Positions 1-31,258 of a DNA stretch of 31,790 bases are shown piece after piece; position 1 is the first letter of the stretch; the number at the start of each line of letters is the position of its first letter. The notes below the pieces were generated by a model. The model saw only the letters and a program-made list of their open reading frames with translations, was not told where the DNA came from and made no database searches. The position numbers and the translations under genes were made by a program. The DNA comes from a virus, in the IMG/VR virus record IMGVR_UViG_3300048919_000554, positions 1-31,790 of that record; one strand, 5' to 3'.

Positions 1-122
<122 letters not shown>

Positions 123-19168: not shown

Positions 19169-20938
19169 ATGACCATCACCACTGACACCACACTTCTGAG
19201 CGATCCGCGACGACAGGCGGCGCTGCTGTTCTGGCAGGGGTTTTCTGTGCCACAAATCTCGGAGATGTTGCAGACCAAACGCCCCACGGTGCAGAGCTGG
19301 AAACAGCGAGACAAATGGGAAGCGACAGCGCCTCTGACGCGAGTCGAAACTACGCTCGAAGCGAGGCTGATCCAGCTCTATGCAAAACCCGACCTGACGG
19401 CACACGATTTCAAGGTCGCTGATTTTCTGGCGCGGCAGATGGAGCGCCTTTCGCGGGTTAACCGCTACGGTCAGACTGGCAACGAGGCGGATTTAAACCC
19501 TAACGTCGCGAATCGCAACAAGGGCGAAAAGAAGAAGCCGAAGAAGAATTTCTTCAGCGACGAAGCCATCGAGAAACTCGATGAGCTTTTCCTCGACCAG
19601 TCATTCGACTACCAGCTCGACTGGTATCGCGCCGGGTTGGCCCATCGCATCCGCCATATACTGAAATCCCGCCAGATTGGCGCGACGTTCTACTTTGCAC
19701 GTGAGGCGCTAATGAGGGCGCTGAAGACCGGCAACAATCAGATTTTCCTGTCGGCCAGTAAAACGCAGGCCTATGTCTTCCGCGAGTACATCATCCAGTT
19801 TGCAAAGCTCGCCGACGTGGAGCTCACTGGCGATCCGATCATCATCGGCAACAATGGTGCGAAGCTGATTTTTCTCGGCACCAACTCCAACACCGCGCAG
19901 AGTCATAACGGCGATTTGTACGTCGATGAGATTTTCTGGATCCCCAACTTCCAGCGGCTGCGAAAAGTTGCCTCGGGCATGGCCTCACAGAAGCACCTGC
20001 GCACGACCTATTTTTCGACCCCTTCATCCCTGGGGCATGGCGCTTATGCGTTCTGGTCAGGAGAGCTTTTCAATCGCGGTAGGGCCAATGCTGGCGACCG
20101 TGTTGACATCGATATCACGCACGCGGCACTGGCGAAGGGAGTCGCCTGCCCGGACGGTCAGTGGAGACAGATTGTCACCATAGAAGATGCACTCACCGGA
20201 GGATGCACGCTGTTTAATATCGACACACTCAAACAAGAAAACAGTACGGATGACTTCCGTAATTTGTTTATGTGCGAGTTCGTCGACGATAAAGCATCGG
20301 TCTTCCCGTTCGAGGAATTACAGCGCTGTATGGTTGACAGCCTGGAGAAATGGGAAGACGTCGCGCCATTTGCCGACCGTCCATTCAGTTACCGCCCGGT
20401 GTGGATTGGCTACGACCCATCACTACGTGGTGACAGCGCCGGGTGCGTGGTTATCGCGCCGCCGGTGGTCGCCGGGGGTAAATTCCGCATCCTCGAACGT
20501 CACCAGTGGAAAGGCATGGACTTCGCACAGCAGGCCGAATCCATCCGCGAGCTGACACTGAAATACACCGTTGAATACATCGGCATCGATGCGACCGGTC
20601 TCGGTCAGGGCGTGTACCAGCTCGTGCGCTCGTTCTATCCAGCGGCGCGGGAAATCCGTTACACCCCGGAAATGAAAACCGCGATGGTACTGAAAGCCAA
20701 AGACACCATCACGCGTGGCTGTCTGGAGTATGACGTCGGTGCGACCGATCTCACGCAGTCGTTTATGTCTATCCGTAAAACTATGACCAGCAGCGGGCGC
20801 AGTGCCACCTATGAGGCCAGCCGCACCGAAGAAGCAAGTCACGCCGATCTGGCATGGGCAACCATGCACGTCTTAATCAATGAGCCACTGACCGCCGCCA
20901 GCGGCCAGCCGTCATCCTCAATCATGGAATGGAACTGA
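19169..20938 (+). CDS. P: Terminase large subunit (ATPase) GpP
   Basis: The 589-residue product (590 in P2) is the packaging motor. Residues 20-50 hold a helix-turn-helix (AALLFWQGFSVPQISEML and VQSWKQRDKW). A Walker A-like SRQIGATFYF is at 167-176 and Walker B LYVDEIFW at 250-257. The nuclease half includes IGYDPSLRGDSAG and TVEYIGIDATGLGQG. I start at 19169 (MTITTDTTLL), which has GAGG six bases upstream and matches the P2 N-terminus, instead of a TTG thirty bases earlier. The stop overlaps the Q start. Confidence 0.97.
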   Translation: MTITTDTTLLSDPRRQAALLFWQGFSVPQISEMLQTKRPTVQSWKQRDKWEATAPLTRVETTLEARLIQLYAKPDLTAHDFKVADFLARQMERLSRVNRYGQTGNEADLNPNVANRNKGEKKKPKKNFFSDEAIEKLDELFLDQSFDYQLDWYRAGLAHRIRHILKSRQIGATFYFAREALMRALKTGNNQIFLSASKTQAYVFREYIIQFAKLADVELTGDPIIIGNNGAKLIFLGTNSNTAQSHNGDLYVDEIFWIPNFQRLRKVASGMASQKHLRTTYFSTPSSLGHGAYAFWSGELFNRGRANAGDRVDIDITHAALAKGVACPDGQWRQIVTIEDALTGGCTLFNIDTLKQENSTDDFRNLFMCEFVDDKASVFPFEELQRCMVDSLEKWEDVAPFADRPFSYRPVWIGYDPSLRGDSAGCVVIAPPVVAGGKFRILERHQWKGMDFAQQAESIRELTLKYTVEYIGIDATGLGQGVYQLVRSFYPAAREIRYTPEMKTAMVLKAKDTITRGCLEYDVGATDLTQSFMSIRKTMTSSGRSATYEASRTEEASHADLAWATMHVLINEPLTAASGQPSSSIMEWN

Positions 20939-21972
20939 TGAGTAAACGCAACAGCAACAAGAAAACCCAATACACCGCGAAACTGCAGCAGTCCGCAGTG
21001 CCTGCTCAGAGCATGGAGGCGTTTACCTTCGGAGAGCCGACAGCGGTGCTCGACCGGCGCGATATTCTCGATTACGTGGAGTGCGTTGATAACGGGCAAT
21101 GGTATGAGCCGCCGGTGAGTTTCTCGGGGCTGGCGAAAAGCCTGCGTGCTGCCGTGCACCACAGCTCACCGATTTACGTTAAGCGTAATATTCTGGCATC
21201 GACCTACATACCGCACCCGTTACTGTCACAGCAAGACTTCAGCCGGTTCGTGCTCGACTTTCTGGTCTTCGGTAATGCGTTTATCGAGAAGCGAGTCAGC
21301 CTGTCAGGCAAGCCGATCAAACTGGAGACTTCACCGGCAAAATACACCCGGCGAGGAGTAGAGGATGACACTTACTGGTACATGCAATCCGATTCGAAGC
21401 CGCATCAGTTTGCGCCGGGCTCTGTATTTCATTTGCTCGAACCAGATATCAATCAAGAAGTGTACGGCCTGCCAGAATATCTGAGCGCACTCAACTCCGC
21501 TTGGCTGAATGAATCCGCGACGCTGTTCCGCCGCAAGTATTACCAGAACGGTGCACACGCGGGCTACATCATGTATGTGACCGACGCTGCGCAAAGCAGC
21601 ACCGACGTCGAAGCGCTGCGGAAGGCAATGCGTGATTCGAAGGGACTAGGGAATTTTAAGAATCTGTTTTTCTACGCCCCAAACGGCAAGGCAGACGGGA
21701 TTAAAATTGTGCCGCTGAGTGAAGTCGCGACGAAAGATGATTTTTTTAACATCAAGAAGGTGAGTGCTGCTGACATGCTTGATGCGCATAGGATCCCGTT
21801 CCAGTTGATGGGAGGGAAGCCTGAGAATGTGGGGGCATTGGGTGATGTTGAAATGGTGGCAAAAGTTTTTGTTAGGAATGAATTAATTCCACTTCAGAAT
21901 AGAATGCGGGAAGTTAATGATTGGCTTGGGAGTAATGTCATTGATTTTAAAATGTATGGGCTAGATATTTAG
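20938..21972 (+). CDS. Q: Portal protein GpQ
   Basis: Read from 20938 the portal is 344 residues, as in P2. It forms the vertex ring through which DNA is packaged. Core sequences are MEAFTFGEPTAVLDRRDILDY, AAVHHSSPIYVKRNILAST and FQLMGGKPENVGALGD. The start ATG shares its A with the P stop (TGATG). Codon usage shifts toward A+T in the last 150 bases, just before the cargo cassette, hinting at an old recombination point near the gene end. A strong terminator follows eleven bases after the stop. Confidence 0.97.
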   Translation: MSKRNSNKKTQYTAKLQQSAVPAQSMEAFTFGEPTAVLDRRDILDYVECVDNGQWYEPPVSFSGLAKSLRAAVHHSSPIYVKRNILASTYIPHPLLSQQDFSRFVLDFLVFGNAFIEKRVSLSGKPIKLETSPAKYTRRGVEDDTYWYMQSDSKPHQFAPGSVFHLLEPDINQEVYGLPEYLSALNSAWLNESATLFRRKYYQNGAHAGYIMYVTDAAQSSTDVEALRKAMRDSKGLGNFKNLFFYAPNGKADGIKIVPLSEVATKDDFFNIKKVSAADMLDAHRIPFQLMGGKPENVGALGDVEMVAKVFVRNELIPLQNRMREVNDWLGSNVIDFKMYGLDI

Positions 21973-22011: not shown

Positions 22012-23073
22012 TTATAAGTATATGTATTCTTTTAAAATATCCAATCTTCTTTGTCTGTTTGCTTTCTTCTGAACACCTTCTTGTGAGAGTTTTCTATACT
22101 CATCAAGTAAATCCTTTGCGGTGCCATTGTCAAAGTCAGTCTCTGAGCGATAATGTTTAAACCACTCCTCTAGCTTTTCAGAAATTATTTGATAGTTGTT
22201 TTCAACATCTAATTGAACTTTGTGAATAAAAAATGCCAGTGTAAAAAGAGTATAGAAATGGGTTTTCCTTTTGGATATGAACTCGAGGTTTTCTTTGTTC
22301 TTTATGATTTTTGAAATTATGGCTAATAAGGAAAGGAAAAGGTTTTTGTCCTCATCAGCCTCTGGGTATTCCTCATTGTATTGATCGTAGATTTTATTTA
22401 TAGCAGACTGAGAGGTTTCTTCAGCAATACCCATTCGGATGAAGATTAATATGGTGCTGATGAATTGGATATCCAGCATTCTTCTTAGGTCAGTGGAGTT
22501 GAATATATTGAATTCAGCCCAGAAGGGAATTTTTGAAATACAATCGGCAAGCTTTATGAATTCTCCATTGAATTCTGCATTTCTCAGTTCTTGAGGGTTC
22601 AGTGTTGTGTTGGTTCTATTTAGACGTAAGAATAGATTTTTAATATCATCAATGGTAATGCTATTATTTATGAATCTTATTGAAAAGTCATAGCCCCAGA
22701 CTAAAGCTTTCTGTTCCATCTCGAGTTCAGAGAATTTCTTTCCGGAGAAATTGGCGTCTTGATATTCAAGGTATTTTTTATCTAGAGCGAATTTATCAGA
22801 GACGAAATCAAATACTGCTCCTAAGCGTTGCTGTCCATCTACAATAGAATGAACTCGCTGTCCGGTTTCCGGATCGGTTTTATTTTGCCACAAATAAACT
22901 TCTGGAATTGGGAATCCTAGTAATATTGATTCAATTAAGGATATTTTATCTTTTTTTACCCATACATATCGGCGCTGAAAGGAATTATCTATAACTAGTT
23001 CGCCTGATTTAAAGTTATCGGACACCCATTTTATATCTCTACTTTCAACTTTGACATTTCTTACTATGCTCAT
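22012..23073 (-). CDS. DUF262-domain protein (ParB/sulfiredoxin-fold NTPase-like), second gene of the Q-cos cassette
   Basis: The 353-residue product has the DUF262 signatures FQRRYVW at about residues 32-38, IPEVYLW at 56-62 and IVDGQQRL at 77-84, the last being the nucleotide-binding loop. DUF262 is the N-terminal half of GmrSD, BrxU and SspE restriction factors, which also carry a DUF1524 HNH nuclease half. No HNH pattern is visible here; the C-terminal half is helical and charged. Any effector activity would then come from DUF262 itself or from the partner. It overlaps the upstream gene by four bases (ATGA). The genes are strongly A+T-rich compared with the phage. A role in anti-phage defence is inference. 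Confidence 0.85.
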   Translation of the reverse strand: MSIVRNVKVESRDIKWVSDNFKSGELVIDNSFQRRYVWVKKDKISLIESILLGFPIPEVYLWQNKTDPETGQRVHSIVDGQQRLGAVFDFVSDKFALDKKYLEYQDANFSGKKFSELEMEQKALVWGYDFSIRFINNSITIDDIKNLFLRLNRTNTTLNPQELRNAEFNGEFIKLADCISKIPFWAEFNIFNSTDLRRMLDIQFISTILIFIRMGIAEETSQSAINKIYDQYNEEYPEADEDKNLFLSLLAIISKIIKNKENLEFISKRKTHFYTLFTLAFFIHKVQLDVENNYQIISEKLEEWFKHYRSETDFDNGTAKDLLDEYRKLSQEGVQKKANRQRRLDILKEYIYL

Positions 23074-23672
23074 ATTTTACCCGCTCCAAGCATTTCTTTC
23101 AGTTTTTCTAATCCTTGAACATGATAACGTTCTACATCTTCCCAGGATTCATAAATTCTGTAATTAATTTCATTGGGTACATCATAAACAACTTGCAATT
23201 CTTTTTGGCAAGGTTCCATTCGCCCCTTCCATTGCCTGAAGAAATCATTGTTAAATTCAATGTTTTTAAGTGCAACAAATTTTCTGAAAATATTGCCTGT
23301 AACCATGTTGTAATAAGGTACCCTTTCTGTTTTTGCAACATCAAGGTATGCGGACCAACATTTTCTAAATAAATCGCTTGAGACGACAACTATATCCATG
23401 TCGCTTTTATCATGGAAGTTTTTAAATGCTTTTTCTTCTGTTGGAGTTAAGCTGAATCCAAGTTTGGCGCTGCCAACAATTGCTATATTGTTGATGTGTA
23501 TTTCTAACTTCTCTGACATGAATATTTTCAAGTCATCATAAAATTCCGCATGGTTTTTTTTCTTTAATTTATCTCTAAAATACCAGACGTCATGCCCTAA
23601 AAGATATTTTCTGTAAATGTAAGACGGTTCCTTTGAAAGTAAAGCGCCCTTAAAAAAAGTGATATCATCCAT
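23070..23672 (-). CDS. Nucleotidyltransferase-like protein, first gene of the Q-cos cassette
   Basis: The 200-residue product contains GSAKLGFS (67-74) and SDMDIVVVS (90-98), the GS...DxD arrangement of polymerase-beta-type nucleotidyltransferases. The gap between GS and DxD is longer than in MNT or AbiEii proteins. No third catalytic acid is certain. The N-terminus (YIYRKYLLGHDVWYF) and the C-terminus (YESWEDVERYHVQGLEKLKEM) are unfamiliar. GAGG lies seven bases before the ATG. The DUF262 gene overlaps its stop codon, so the two are made in linked amounts. The pair may modify or sense something during infection, but no function is established from sequence alone. Confidence 0.8.
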   Translation of the reverse strand: MDDITFFKGALLSKEPSYIYRKYLLGHDVWYFRDKLKKKNHAEFYDDLKIFMSEKLEIHINNIAIVGSAKLGFSLTPTEEKAFKNFHDKSDMDIVVVSSDLFRKCWSAYLDVAKTERVPYYNMVTGNIFRKFVALKNIEFNNDFFRQWKGRMEPCQKELQVVYDVPNEINYRIYESWEDVERYHVQGLEKLKEMLGAGKI

Positions 23673-28450: not shown

Positions 28451-28459
28451 AGGTGTCAA
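28431..28459 (-). promoter_or_regulatory. pR-type lytic promoter before apl
   Basis: On the minus strand a consensus TTGACA (28459-28454) and TAGATT (28436-28431) are 17 bases apart. They lie about 65-90 bases before apl, the first early gene. The -35 lies inside the palindrome at 28446-28461, so a protein bound there would block the promoter. Confidence 0.72.
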
Positions 28460-28461
28460 AT
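28446..28461. promoter_or_regulatory. Candidate CI operator palindrome
   Basis: ATTTGA-GGTG-TCAAAT is a perfect 6-bp inverted repeat with a 4-base spacer that covers the -35 of the lytic promoter and lies 30 bases before cI. This is the place for a CI site. I do not see clear additional copies in the gap. Confidence 0.55.
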
Positions 28462-28491
28462 TGGATTTTTGCGATTACTCGGATTTTTAAG

Positions 28492-29070
28492 ATGAAACTT
28501 GACGAACTAGAAGGTGGGAAAGCTGTGTTACAGCGCATGCTGGACGCTTATGGTTTCACTATGCAAAAGCAGCTTGGCGATATGCACGAACTGTCATCTG
28601 GGACGATCAGCACATGGATAAGACGAGATTATTTTCCTGGTGATGTGGTGGTTGCTTGTGCTCTGGATACAGGAGTATCGCTTCGCTGGTTGGCGACAGG
28701 GAAGGGGAGTAAGTACGATACAGATCATACCGGTGGCAAGATGAAGACGTTAACTCGTTTCGATATCTTGGCTGGCAACCTGGTTGAAAATGATAAATGG
28801 ATAGTTGATGAGTCGCTGCTCTCAGATGCGATAACGAGCCCAAAGTATGTTTGCAAGGGGCAGAGCTCATGGATTGTCGATTTTGACACAACGGACATCT
28901 CTAATGGCCGTTGGCTTCTGAGCATCGATGGCGATCATGACATTTATGATGTTGCGAGAATTCCAGGCAATAAAATCAAGGTAAGCAATTCGGGTACTGA
29001 TTTTCAATGCGCGGTATCAGAGGTTGAATGCATTGGCTTGGTACATCTCACCCTGAGCAGAACAAACTAA
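28492..29070 (+). CDS. cI: CI immunity repressor (186 type)
   Basis: Read from 28492 (MKLDELEGGKAVLQRMLDAY) the product is 192 residues, the length of 186 CI. A helix-turn-helix spans about residues 20-50 (GFTMQKQLGDMHELSSGTIS). GVSLRWLATGKG at 61-72 ends the DNA-binding domain. The C-terminal domain has no Ala-Gly cleavage site or Ser-Lys pair of the LexA type that I can see, so induction would need an antirepressor, consistent with the LexA-box gene. The longer reading from 28453 lacks a better ribosome-binding site and would cross the operator. It is followed by int after seven bases. Confidence 0.92.
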   Translation: MKLDELEGGKAVLQRMLDAYGFTMQKQLGDMHELSSGTISTWIRRDYFPGDVVVACALDTGVSLRWLATGKGSKYDTDHTGGKMKTLTRFDILAGNLVENDKWIVDESLLSDAITSPKYVCKGQSSWIVDFDTTDISNGRWLLSIDGDHDIYDVARIPGNKIKVSNSGTDFQCAVSEVECIGLVHLTLSRTN

Positions 29071-29077
29071 AAGAATT

Positions 29078-30106
29078 ATGGCGATAAAAAAACTTACCTC
29101 TGGTGAATGGCTTTGTGACTTCCGTGTCGATGGTGCCGAAAGTCGTCGTGTGCGGAAGAAGTTTTCGACCAAAGGTGAAGCGGCAGCCTACGAACAATAT
29201 TATCGTGAAGAGGCTCAAAATAAGCCGTGGATGGGGGAGAAGGAAGACCGTCGACGTCTGAGCGAGCTGATTGAGCTTTGGCATAATCTACATGGTCAGT
29301 CGCTAGAGGCCAGTAAATCTAGGTTAGCCAAACTACATATTGTTTGCCGTGGATTAGGGAATCCGATTGCGGCACAACTCACTGCCAAAGATTTTGCTCA
29401 CTATCGTGATAAAAGACTGAAGGGCGAAATTGACAATGGCTACCATGCGAACCCCGAAAAGTGGATAGCCAAACCGGTTACTGTAAATAGGGAACAGCAA
29501 TATCTTGTAGCTGTTTTCAATGAGCTTAAGCGATTAGGGGAGTGGGAGCTGCCAAACCCTCTTGAAGGCGTTAGAGTATTCAAAGAAGCTGAAAAGGAAA
29601 TGTCATGGCTAACTCAGGCGCAAATTCGCGAATTGCTTGATGCTTGTGAGTCATACGGGAAAATATACTTAACCCGCATCGTGAAGGTATGCCTTGCGAC
29701 CGGTGCCCGATGGAGTGAAGCTGAACGTCTAACGCATTCGCAACTTTCACCCCACAAGCTGACCTTTACAAAAACAAAGGGAAAGAAGAACCGCACGGTT
29801 CCGATCCCACGGTGGCTCTATGATGAGTTGTCTCCTCTGCAGGGGAGAATGTTTCATCCCTGCTATCAGGAGTTCAAGAAAATGCTTGCCTTGACCGATA
29901 TAAAGTTAGCAGAAGGGCAGAAGACGCATGTGCTACGCCATACATTTGCGAGCCATTTTATGATGAATGGTGGCAATATTCTAGTACTTCAAAGAATTCT
30001 TGGGCATGCAAATATTCGTGAAACTATGCGTTATGCTCATTTTTCTCCAGATCATTTAGAAGAGGCGGTATGTTTCAACCCTTTGTCTCATTTACAGGTG
30101 AAATAG
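29078..30106 (+). CDS. int: Tyrosine integrase
   Basis: The 342-residue recombinase (337 in P2) integrates at rplS. The N-terminal arm-binding domain is MAIKKLTSGEWLCDFR. Catalytic residues are R211 (ATGARWSEAERL), H284 and R287 (HVLRHTF), H310 (ILGH) and Y319 (MRYAHF). It lies seven bases downstream of cI, in the same direction, so the two are probably one lysogenic transcript as in 186. Its stop codon directly touches the start of the RelA/SpoT-domain gene, which is unusual for P2-like phages, where int normally ends next to attP. Confidence 0.96.
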   Translation: MAIKKLTSGEWLCDFRVDGAESRRVRKKFSTKGEAAAYEQYYREEAQNKPWMGEKEDRRRLSELIELWHNLHGQSLEASKSRLAKLHIVCRGLGNPIAAQLTAKDFAHYRDKRLKGEIDNGYHANPEKWIAKPVTVNREQQYLVAVFNELKRLGEWELPNPLEGVRVFKEAEKEMSWLTQAQIRELLDACESYGKIYLTRIVKVCLATGARWSEAERLTHSQLSPHKLTFTKTKGKKNRTVPIPRWLYDELSPLQGRMFHPCYQEFKKMLALTDIKLAEGQKTHVLRHTFASHFMMNGGNILVLQRILGHANIRETMRYAHFSPDHLEEAVCFNPLSHLQVK

Positions 30107-31129
30107 ATGGAAGACATTGAAGATAAATATGCAGTAAGGAAACCTAAGTTTGATGGTTTAATGACAGCCTTAAAGTTTTCTCTCTCGCAGATTATAGTAA
30201 AAAAAGATATATCATTGTTTGAGCTTGATGGAAGGGTAAAAACTTTAGATTCTATTAGAAATAAGATGTTGCGCAAGTCATACATAGATCCTTTTGATGA
30301 CATTGAAGATATTTGTGGCTTGAGAATTGTCTGCTATTACACATCTGATATGGATGCGGTTGCTGAGTTGATCAAAGAAGAGTTCCACGTTCTTGAAGAG
30401 TCTGATAAGCAAAAAGAGGCAGAAGATGATAGGTTTGGGTACTTGTCAAGGCACTATATTGTTAAGCTTAAAAATGAGTGGCTAACTGCACCTTTATATA
30501 CTGATTATGAAGGGCTGAAGTTCGAGATACAATTGAGAACAATGCTAATGCATACATGGGCTGCTATTAGTCATAAATTACTTTATAAAAAGGAGAGTGA
30601 CGCACCGCGAGAAGTTAAACGACGTTTGAACAGGTTAAGCGCATTGATTGAACTTGCGGATGAGCAGTTTAATGCTATCCGACAAATAAAAAACGAATAT
30701 GTTGCTAAGCTTGAGAGTGATGAAGGTGATAAAAATACACCTCTTAATTCAGATGGTCTAATTTTACTTGTTAATAAATACTCACCTGGCAGAATCACAA
30801 AAGATGACGATATACCTCAATTTCTCTCTGAAATTGAAAATTATAATATGACGATTTCTGACTTTGAATACAAAATTAAGTTGTGTTTACCCTACCTCGA
30901 TGAGCTAGAAGAGAAGATACTGCGAGCACAAGGTTTTGGCAATCTGCCTGTATGGACCATTGCTGGTTATTGCAGGACAGTTATGGATATGACGTCTGAC
31001 GATTACTACGAGGGGAGATGGGATAATACCACATCATTGCAAGACGTAGGGGAGCCGAATAGTTTTTGGAGTCAATGGCGACAACTCATTGCCGAGTACA
31101 GTTCAAAAGTTAAGTCTAGTATGCATTGA
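30107..31129 (+). CDS. RelA/SpoT-domain nucleotide synthetase, candidate toxSAS/CapRel-like defence protein
   Basis: This 340-residue protein has an apparently intact (p)ppGpp-synthetase-fold domain in its first 165 residues: GRVKTLDS (42-49), DIEDICGLRI (65-74), GYLSRHY (111-117), EIQLRT (140-145) and WAAISHKLLYK (151-161). There is no HD hydrolase domain and no TGS or ACT domain, so it is not housekeeping RelA or SpoT. The C-terminal half (170-340) is helical and unlike anything I recognise. Single-gene CapRel proteins of similar length combine a toxic synthetase with a C-terminal inhibitory and phage-sensing part. The ATG follows the int stop with no gap and AGGTGA seven bases upstream. 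No separate antitoxin gene is visible. Substrate (GTP or tRNA) is unknown. Confidence 0.88.
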   Translation: MEDIEDKYAVRKPKFDGLMTALKFSLSQIIVKKDISLFELDGRVKTLDSIRNKMLRKSYIDPFDDIEDICGLRIVCYYTSDMDAVAELIKEEFHVLEESDKQKEAEDDRFGYLSRHYIVKLKNEWLTAPLYTDYEGLKFEIQLRTMLMHTWAAISHKLLYKKESDAPREVKRRLNRLSALIELADEQFNAIRQIKNEYVAKLESDEGDKNTPLNSDGLILLVNKYSPGRITKDDDIPQFLSEIENYNMTISDFEYKIKLCLPYLDELEEKILRAQGFGNLPVWTIAGYCRTVMDMTSDDYYEGRWDNTTSLQDVGEPNSFWSQWRQLIAEYSSKVKSSMH

Positions 31130-31228
31130 TGACCATATTCTGCCCACACAGCATGTTTTTCACCGCATTTGGCTGCACCAGAGATACATATAACTAACTG
31201 TTTATAATAAAAAATGTATATTTATCAA

Positions 31229-31236
31229 TGTGGTGG
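31229..31236 (+). promoter_or_regulatory. Possible integrase arm site near attR
   Basis: TGTGGTGG differs in two positions from the TGTGGACA octamer repeated beside attL and lies seven bases before the attR core. It may be an arm or core-flanking site; one weak copy is thin evidence. Confidence 0.3.
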
Positions 31237-31242
31237 GTTAAA

Positions 31243-31258
31243 AGCGTCTGAACTAAGA
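31243..31258 (+). repeat. attR core, 16-bp direct repeat with attL
   Basis: This is an exact copy of the sequence at 107-122 that contains the rplS stop. Downstream sequence from here on is the original host DNA, starting with the rplS terminator. Confidence 0.93.

Follow-up and report, generated by a model that had tools for sequence, protein, structure and literature searches.

Our analysis of the window, i.e. the whole stretch of DNA under study (a single IMG/VR record, 31,790 bases long), revealed a small alarmone synthetase (SAS) encoded directly behind the integrase of a P2/186-like prophage, which is inserted at the 3' end of the host gene rplS in an enterobacterial genome. The protein most likely represents a new subfamily of SAS, marked by a helical domain not described before, and we see about an even chance that it is single-gene cargo by which the prophage defends its lysogen against superinfection: a synthetase expressed in the lysogen, gated by its C-terminal domain and triggered by phage to arrest growth. 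According to the mechanism proposed here, the CI-int transcript would provide for SAS synthesis in the lysogen, the SAS start codon adjoining the int stop. The N-terminal part of the SAS would use ATP as pyrophosphate donor, the acceptor being most likely a nucleotide of guanine or adenine. Until an incoming phage is sensed, the helical domain at the C-terminus would keep the synthetase quiet; it would then free the enzyme, which would halt the growth of the cell.

The initial annotation had the gene begin immediately behind the int stop codon, beside attR and within the CI-int transcription unit, and this placement was borne out. The + strand carries the genes for CI, Int and SAS in this order, 7 bp lying between the first two and 0 bp between the last two: the int stop codon TAG (30104-30106) runs straight into the SAS ATG, and 113 bp separate the SAS stop codon from attR (Table 1). 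Since the att repeat occurs at both 107-122 and 31243-31258, the gene lies inside the prophage. Its position behind int suggests that lysogens express it together with CI and Int. A Shine-Dalgarno-like site is located ahead of its start codon, and sites comparable to it are present in the related loci L011 and L012. A consensus scan detected no + strand promoter in the CI-int-SAS unit; CI itself is also without one, so the scan says little on expression. The open reading frame is not a product of chance, since it extends over 340 codons at 37% GC in surroundings of 46-54% (int 46%, phage about 53%), matches a Pfam family significantly and has near-full-length relatives. Two genes of the - strand (22012-23672) at the classic P2 hotspot tin/old, located between a putative portal gene (20929-21972) and gpA, provide the prophage with a second defence candidate, in a conventional hotspot. 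The first of them matches GmrSD_N (PF03235, E 6e-21) and PADLOC NsnA (E 3e-38), and its partner of 200 amino acids is without matches.

Table 1. Features of the prophage ends, the lysogenic unit and the SAS gene in the window.
Feature	Position	Strand	Basis
attL core	107..122	.	16-bp direct repeat with 31243-31258; 3' end of host rplS
186-type CI repressor gene, opening the lysogenic unit; possible start at 28492	28453..29070	+	PF07022 + PF16452
int, tyrosine integrase	29078..30106	+	PF24624 + PF00589
AGGTGA, Shine-Dalgarno-like, inside the 3' end of int	30096..30101	+	read from the sequence; 5 nt ahead of the SAS ATG
SAS, 340 aa, with a helical domain at the C-terminus	30107..31129	+	ORF + Pfam + alignment + model
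Synthetase domain, residues 36-165	30212..30601	+	PF04607; invariant columns; VIA Z 20.1 to RelQ 5dec over residues 5-198
Linking helix, residues 166-203, RelQ-like	30602..30715	+	AF2 model + structural alignment
All-alpha C-terminal domain (about residues 204-340), a candidate for sensing or regulation	30716..31126	+	AF2 of the domain alone
Conserved phage attP arm, from the cargo stop codon onward	31130..31242	.	blastn to L015, L002, L011, L009
attR core AGCGTCTGAACTAAGA	31243..31258	.	second copy of the 16-bp direct repeat (first copy at 107-122); inside the 3' end of rplS

The Pfam search identified RelA_SpoT (PF04607) on residues 42-164 of the SAS (E 7.8e-25), and neither a hydrolase nor a TGS or ACT domain was found in the 340-residue protein, in agreement with the earlier description of a full set of synthetase motifs with no hydrolase or known regulatory domain. 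The donor site consists of R43, K45, S49, K53 and R56, and is followed by D68 (Mg), the G-loop Y112 and further by E140/Q142/R144, H156 and Y160-K161. Apart from R56, for which a few relatives have K or T, all these residues are invariant in a nine-member alignment; in a 19-member alignment S49 varies and the rest of the set stays invariant. Relatives in independent phages match almost the entire protein at 41-58% identity, with intact reading frames and conserved donor, acceptor and G-loop residues in about 12 of them.

The AF2 model of the full-length protein (pLDDT 87, pTM 0.75) is closest in its core to RelQ/YjbM (PDB 5dec) and RelP (6ewz). Over residues 5-198 the VIA Z was 20.1 for RelQ and 19.7 for RelP (24-32% identity over the aligned core), compared with 13.7 for CapRel, 11.3 for Tas1 and 7.6 for FaRel2, and the N-terminal length is similar to that of RelQ and RelP. 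RelQ/YjbM was also the best match in a sequence search of the PDB (phmmer E 3e-19; profile E 8e-25, against E 5e-4 for the CapRel profile). This closeness favours an unlikely alternative in which the gene is stress cargo encoding a (p)ppGpp synthetase of RelQ type, by which lysogen physiology or the maintenance of lysogeny would be tuned, with no phage sensing. However, the RelQ/RelP full-length equivalog has about 210 amino acids ending in a tetramer helix, which the SAS of the window does not fit: it is a phage-borne protein of 340 residues with an extra conserved helical domain not present in RelQ, it scores 87.7 bits in NCBIfam YjbM against a cut-off of 320, and its gene occupies a slot in common with defence-type genes. 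The initial annotation had named clustering with non-toxic SAS as evidence against its reading, and such clustering was found in part. By fold and sequence the core lies nearer to the non-toxic RelQ and RelP than to known toxSAS, which counts against single-gene defence, but in a synthetase-only tree, where several deep branches are weakly supported, the family forms its own clade, separate from RelQ, amid a wide group of SAS from mobile elements. The PADLOC candidate PDC-S33 matches only the SAS core of the protein (residues 20-185, E 9e-17), and a literature search on PDC-S33 returned no paper.

A second alternative, to which we give an equally low probability, is a CapRel/FaRel2-like enzyme, i.e. 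a pyrophosphokinase of the tRNA 3'-CCA that is restrained by its C-terminal domain and differs in the sensor alone. The gene is, consistently with this, prophage-borne, solitary and two-domain in its product, which shares the G-loop tyrosine and the donor set of FaRel2 (R64, K66, S70, K74, R77, D90; PMC11782079). FaRel2 uses K28/R29 in a basic N-terminal extension (PMC11782079), and such a tRNA-anchoring extension is absent from the SAS of the window: 42 residues precede the donor arginine, with a net charge of -1 to -6 in seven P2-like carriers, versus 78 residues with a net charge of +6 in CapRel. Furthermore, the family has kept H-x3-YK, an acceptor motif of alarmone synthetases that CapRel is without. 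The lack of a basic extension together with the retained motif makes a nucleotide acceptor more likely than tRNA.

The C-terminal region was folded alone by AF2 into seven helices (pLDDT 87.6, pTM 0.83). Pairwise identity amounts to 37% in residues 201-310, compared with 59% in the core, and for the pair L002-L011 dN/dS was 0.145 in the C-terminal domain versus 0.026 in the core, about 5.6 times faster, as estimated from one close pair with near-saturated dS. The domain is under purifying selection and evolves faster than the core, as a sensor would, and D216, R229, E242, E268, W283, R290, Y300 and R304 are invariant in the nine-member alignment. Being separate and faster-evolving, it is a natural candidate for holding the synthetase off and for sensing. 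The initial annotation had proposed a sensor in the C-terminal 170 residues; a separate C-terminal domain was confirmed, but its length is about 130-140 residues (roughly 205-340). Against the gating role, the domain could instead serve oligomerisation or ligand binding. No Pfam family matched it, and Foldseek returned no PDB fold at E<=0.001 (best VIA Z 3.5), by which a new fold is not proved. Weak profile matches of the domain were set aside as coiled-coil or chance. Weak matches to a related domain were obtained in prophage SAS of Firmicute type (A3 vs A4: 80% probability, E 1.4e-5) and in the SAS of a Streptomyces plasmid (26%, E 7e-4), and no such domain was detected in a Klebsiella plasmid SAS or in a second SAS found in the same slot in locus L057.

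The proposed relationship to CapRel of prophage SJ46 (PDB 7ztb, PMC9712102) has to be given up. Both are one-protein prophage SAS with an extra, faster-evolving C-terminal domain, and they share donor residues and the G-loop tyrosine, which are common to all SAS and hence not diagnostic. CapRel has a pseudo-zinc-finger and a YXXY motif for neutralisation, whereas the C-terminal domain described here is all-helical and contains neither; YXXY is absent from residues 200-340, and hhalign of this domain with the CapRel C-terminus gave E 0.39 with no alignment to the CapRel antitoxin domain. BLASTP detected in common only a 16-residue motif around the EIQLRT core, the family forms a separate clade, and the CapRel profile match falls far below those of RelQ and RelP. 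Thus, the SAS of the window is not a CapRel; the resemblance is one of architecture and context and does not extend to kinship, and the protein may act in a CapRel-like self-contained way.

In all seven P2-like carriers the SAS gene is codirectional with int at a distance of at most 10 nt, whether behind or ahead of it: directly after int in the window, L002, L009, L011, L012 and L016, and between CI and int in L010. The family is rare and patchy in distribution, which favours defence cargo. Among 392 enterobacterial genomes (the family of the Pluralibacter assembly) four had matches at E<=1e-20, one of them full-length; blastn found no copy in 5,426 E. coli genomes, and one relative occurs in a Vibrio filamentous phage record at 46% identity. 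The identities of int and SAS to those of the window disagree (91% and 47% in L011, 83% and 57% in L009), which indicates that SAS alleles are exchanged or diverge fast. L017 and L094 are parts of the same 55.7-kb contig with the SAS at its start and int at its end, as if it were circular with int and SAS adjacent. In L009 (7025-7300) 80 bp of the rplS 3' end lie between two att cores, reflecting a tandem prophage or a chimeric assembly, and this locus was therefore not used as proof of a free phage genome.

Rarity and low GC would also suit a neutral or decaying moron acquired near attP, but the intact frames in about a dozen relatives, the invariant active site and dN/dS well below 1 make this very improbable. 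That SAS toxins usually have neighbouring antitoxins (PMC11782079) would favour the least probable alternative, the toxin of a two-gene addiction module. However, no partner gene recurs beside the SAS across 11 loci, which argues against a separate antitoxin and agrees with the earlier description of a solitary gene. The alternative is further opposed by the distance of only 113 bp from the SAS stop to attR and by the int-side neighbours, which in all relatives are CI, int or non-recurrent cargo. An intact synthetase with neither a hydrolase nor a recurrent partner has to be either harmless at its basal level or held off in cis. In having no recurrent partner the family differs from the toxSAS toxin-antitoxin systems FaRel2, PhRel and PhRel2, which have an adjacent antitoxin gene. 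PhRel/ATphRel of mycobacteriophage Phrann, compared here by its description, is likewise prophage-encoded with a reported anti-superinfection role (cited in PMC9712102), but consists of two genes, one of them a separate antitoxin.

The initial annotation considered a gene between int and attP unusual, which does not hold, whereas its notion of a defence-type location does. This position is a recurrent one-gene cassette site with defence- or toxin-like single genes among its cargo: a codirectional ORF of at least 200 amino acids starts at -40 to +30 of the int stop in 19 of the 46 int loci whose sequence extends 600 bp or more beyond int. The post-int genes differ among phages with near-identical CI-int. 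In L043 int is 96% identical to that of the window, but the cargo is an FRG protein (PADLOC PDC-S15, E 1e-111); L044 and E. coli FORC 064 carry a membrane protein in the slot, and in the E. coli strains 2779 and EC18 it is empty. Other cargo comprises RES-like proteins, membrane proteins and a DCD-dUTPase-like protein with a transmembrane segment. Homology by blastn stops just before the int stop and restarts at query positions 2729-2731, the SAS stop being at 2730; with phage homology taken up again right at the end of the cargo gene, the slot accommodates one gene. The second SAS mentioned above (L057:5052-6386, PADLOC PDC-S33) has 444 amino acids and an unrelated C-terminus. RES-like proteins of about 400 amino acids with a weak Pfam match only are encoded directly behind int in L111, L112, L118 and L121.

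The other cargo of the slot and the SAS-type defences known from prophages, CapRel SJ46 and Phrann PhRel (PMC9712102), point to a defence role of the SAS as well. Variable single cargo at a conserved site, also beside CI/int, is characteristic of prophage defence hotspots such as P2 tin/old and fun and the Vibrio cI-int locus (PMC9122126, PMC9519451), and PD-T7-4 often overlaps an integrase gene (PMC9519451). Unlike these hotspots, the site in the window lies between int and attP, and no description of an int-attP slot was found in PMC9122126 or PMC9519451.

More tentatively, and with rather less confidence than the defence role itself, the family might constitute a new class of one-protein immune alarmone synthetases, in which a RelQ-type enzyme with an undescribed helical sensor gate is distributed over prophages of several bacterial groups and tied to lysogeny through the CI-int transcript in an unrecognised int-attP cassette slot. 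If the SAS is a defence gene, phage triggering of synthetases would not be confined to the CapRel/PhRel lineage but would also have arisen on a RelQ-like core, joined to another kind of sensor, and immunity may employ true alarmones instead of tRNA modification. The int-attP slot is a simple hunting place for single-gene systems, as its cargo can be read directly behind int in P2/186-like prophages. Cargo was also observed between CI and int, namely a 293-residue BRCT protein (weak PADLOC PDC-S48 match) in L016 (4085-4966), and DUF2511 proteins in E. coli (L128-L130).
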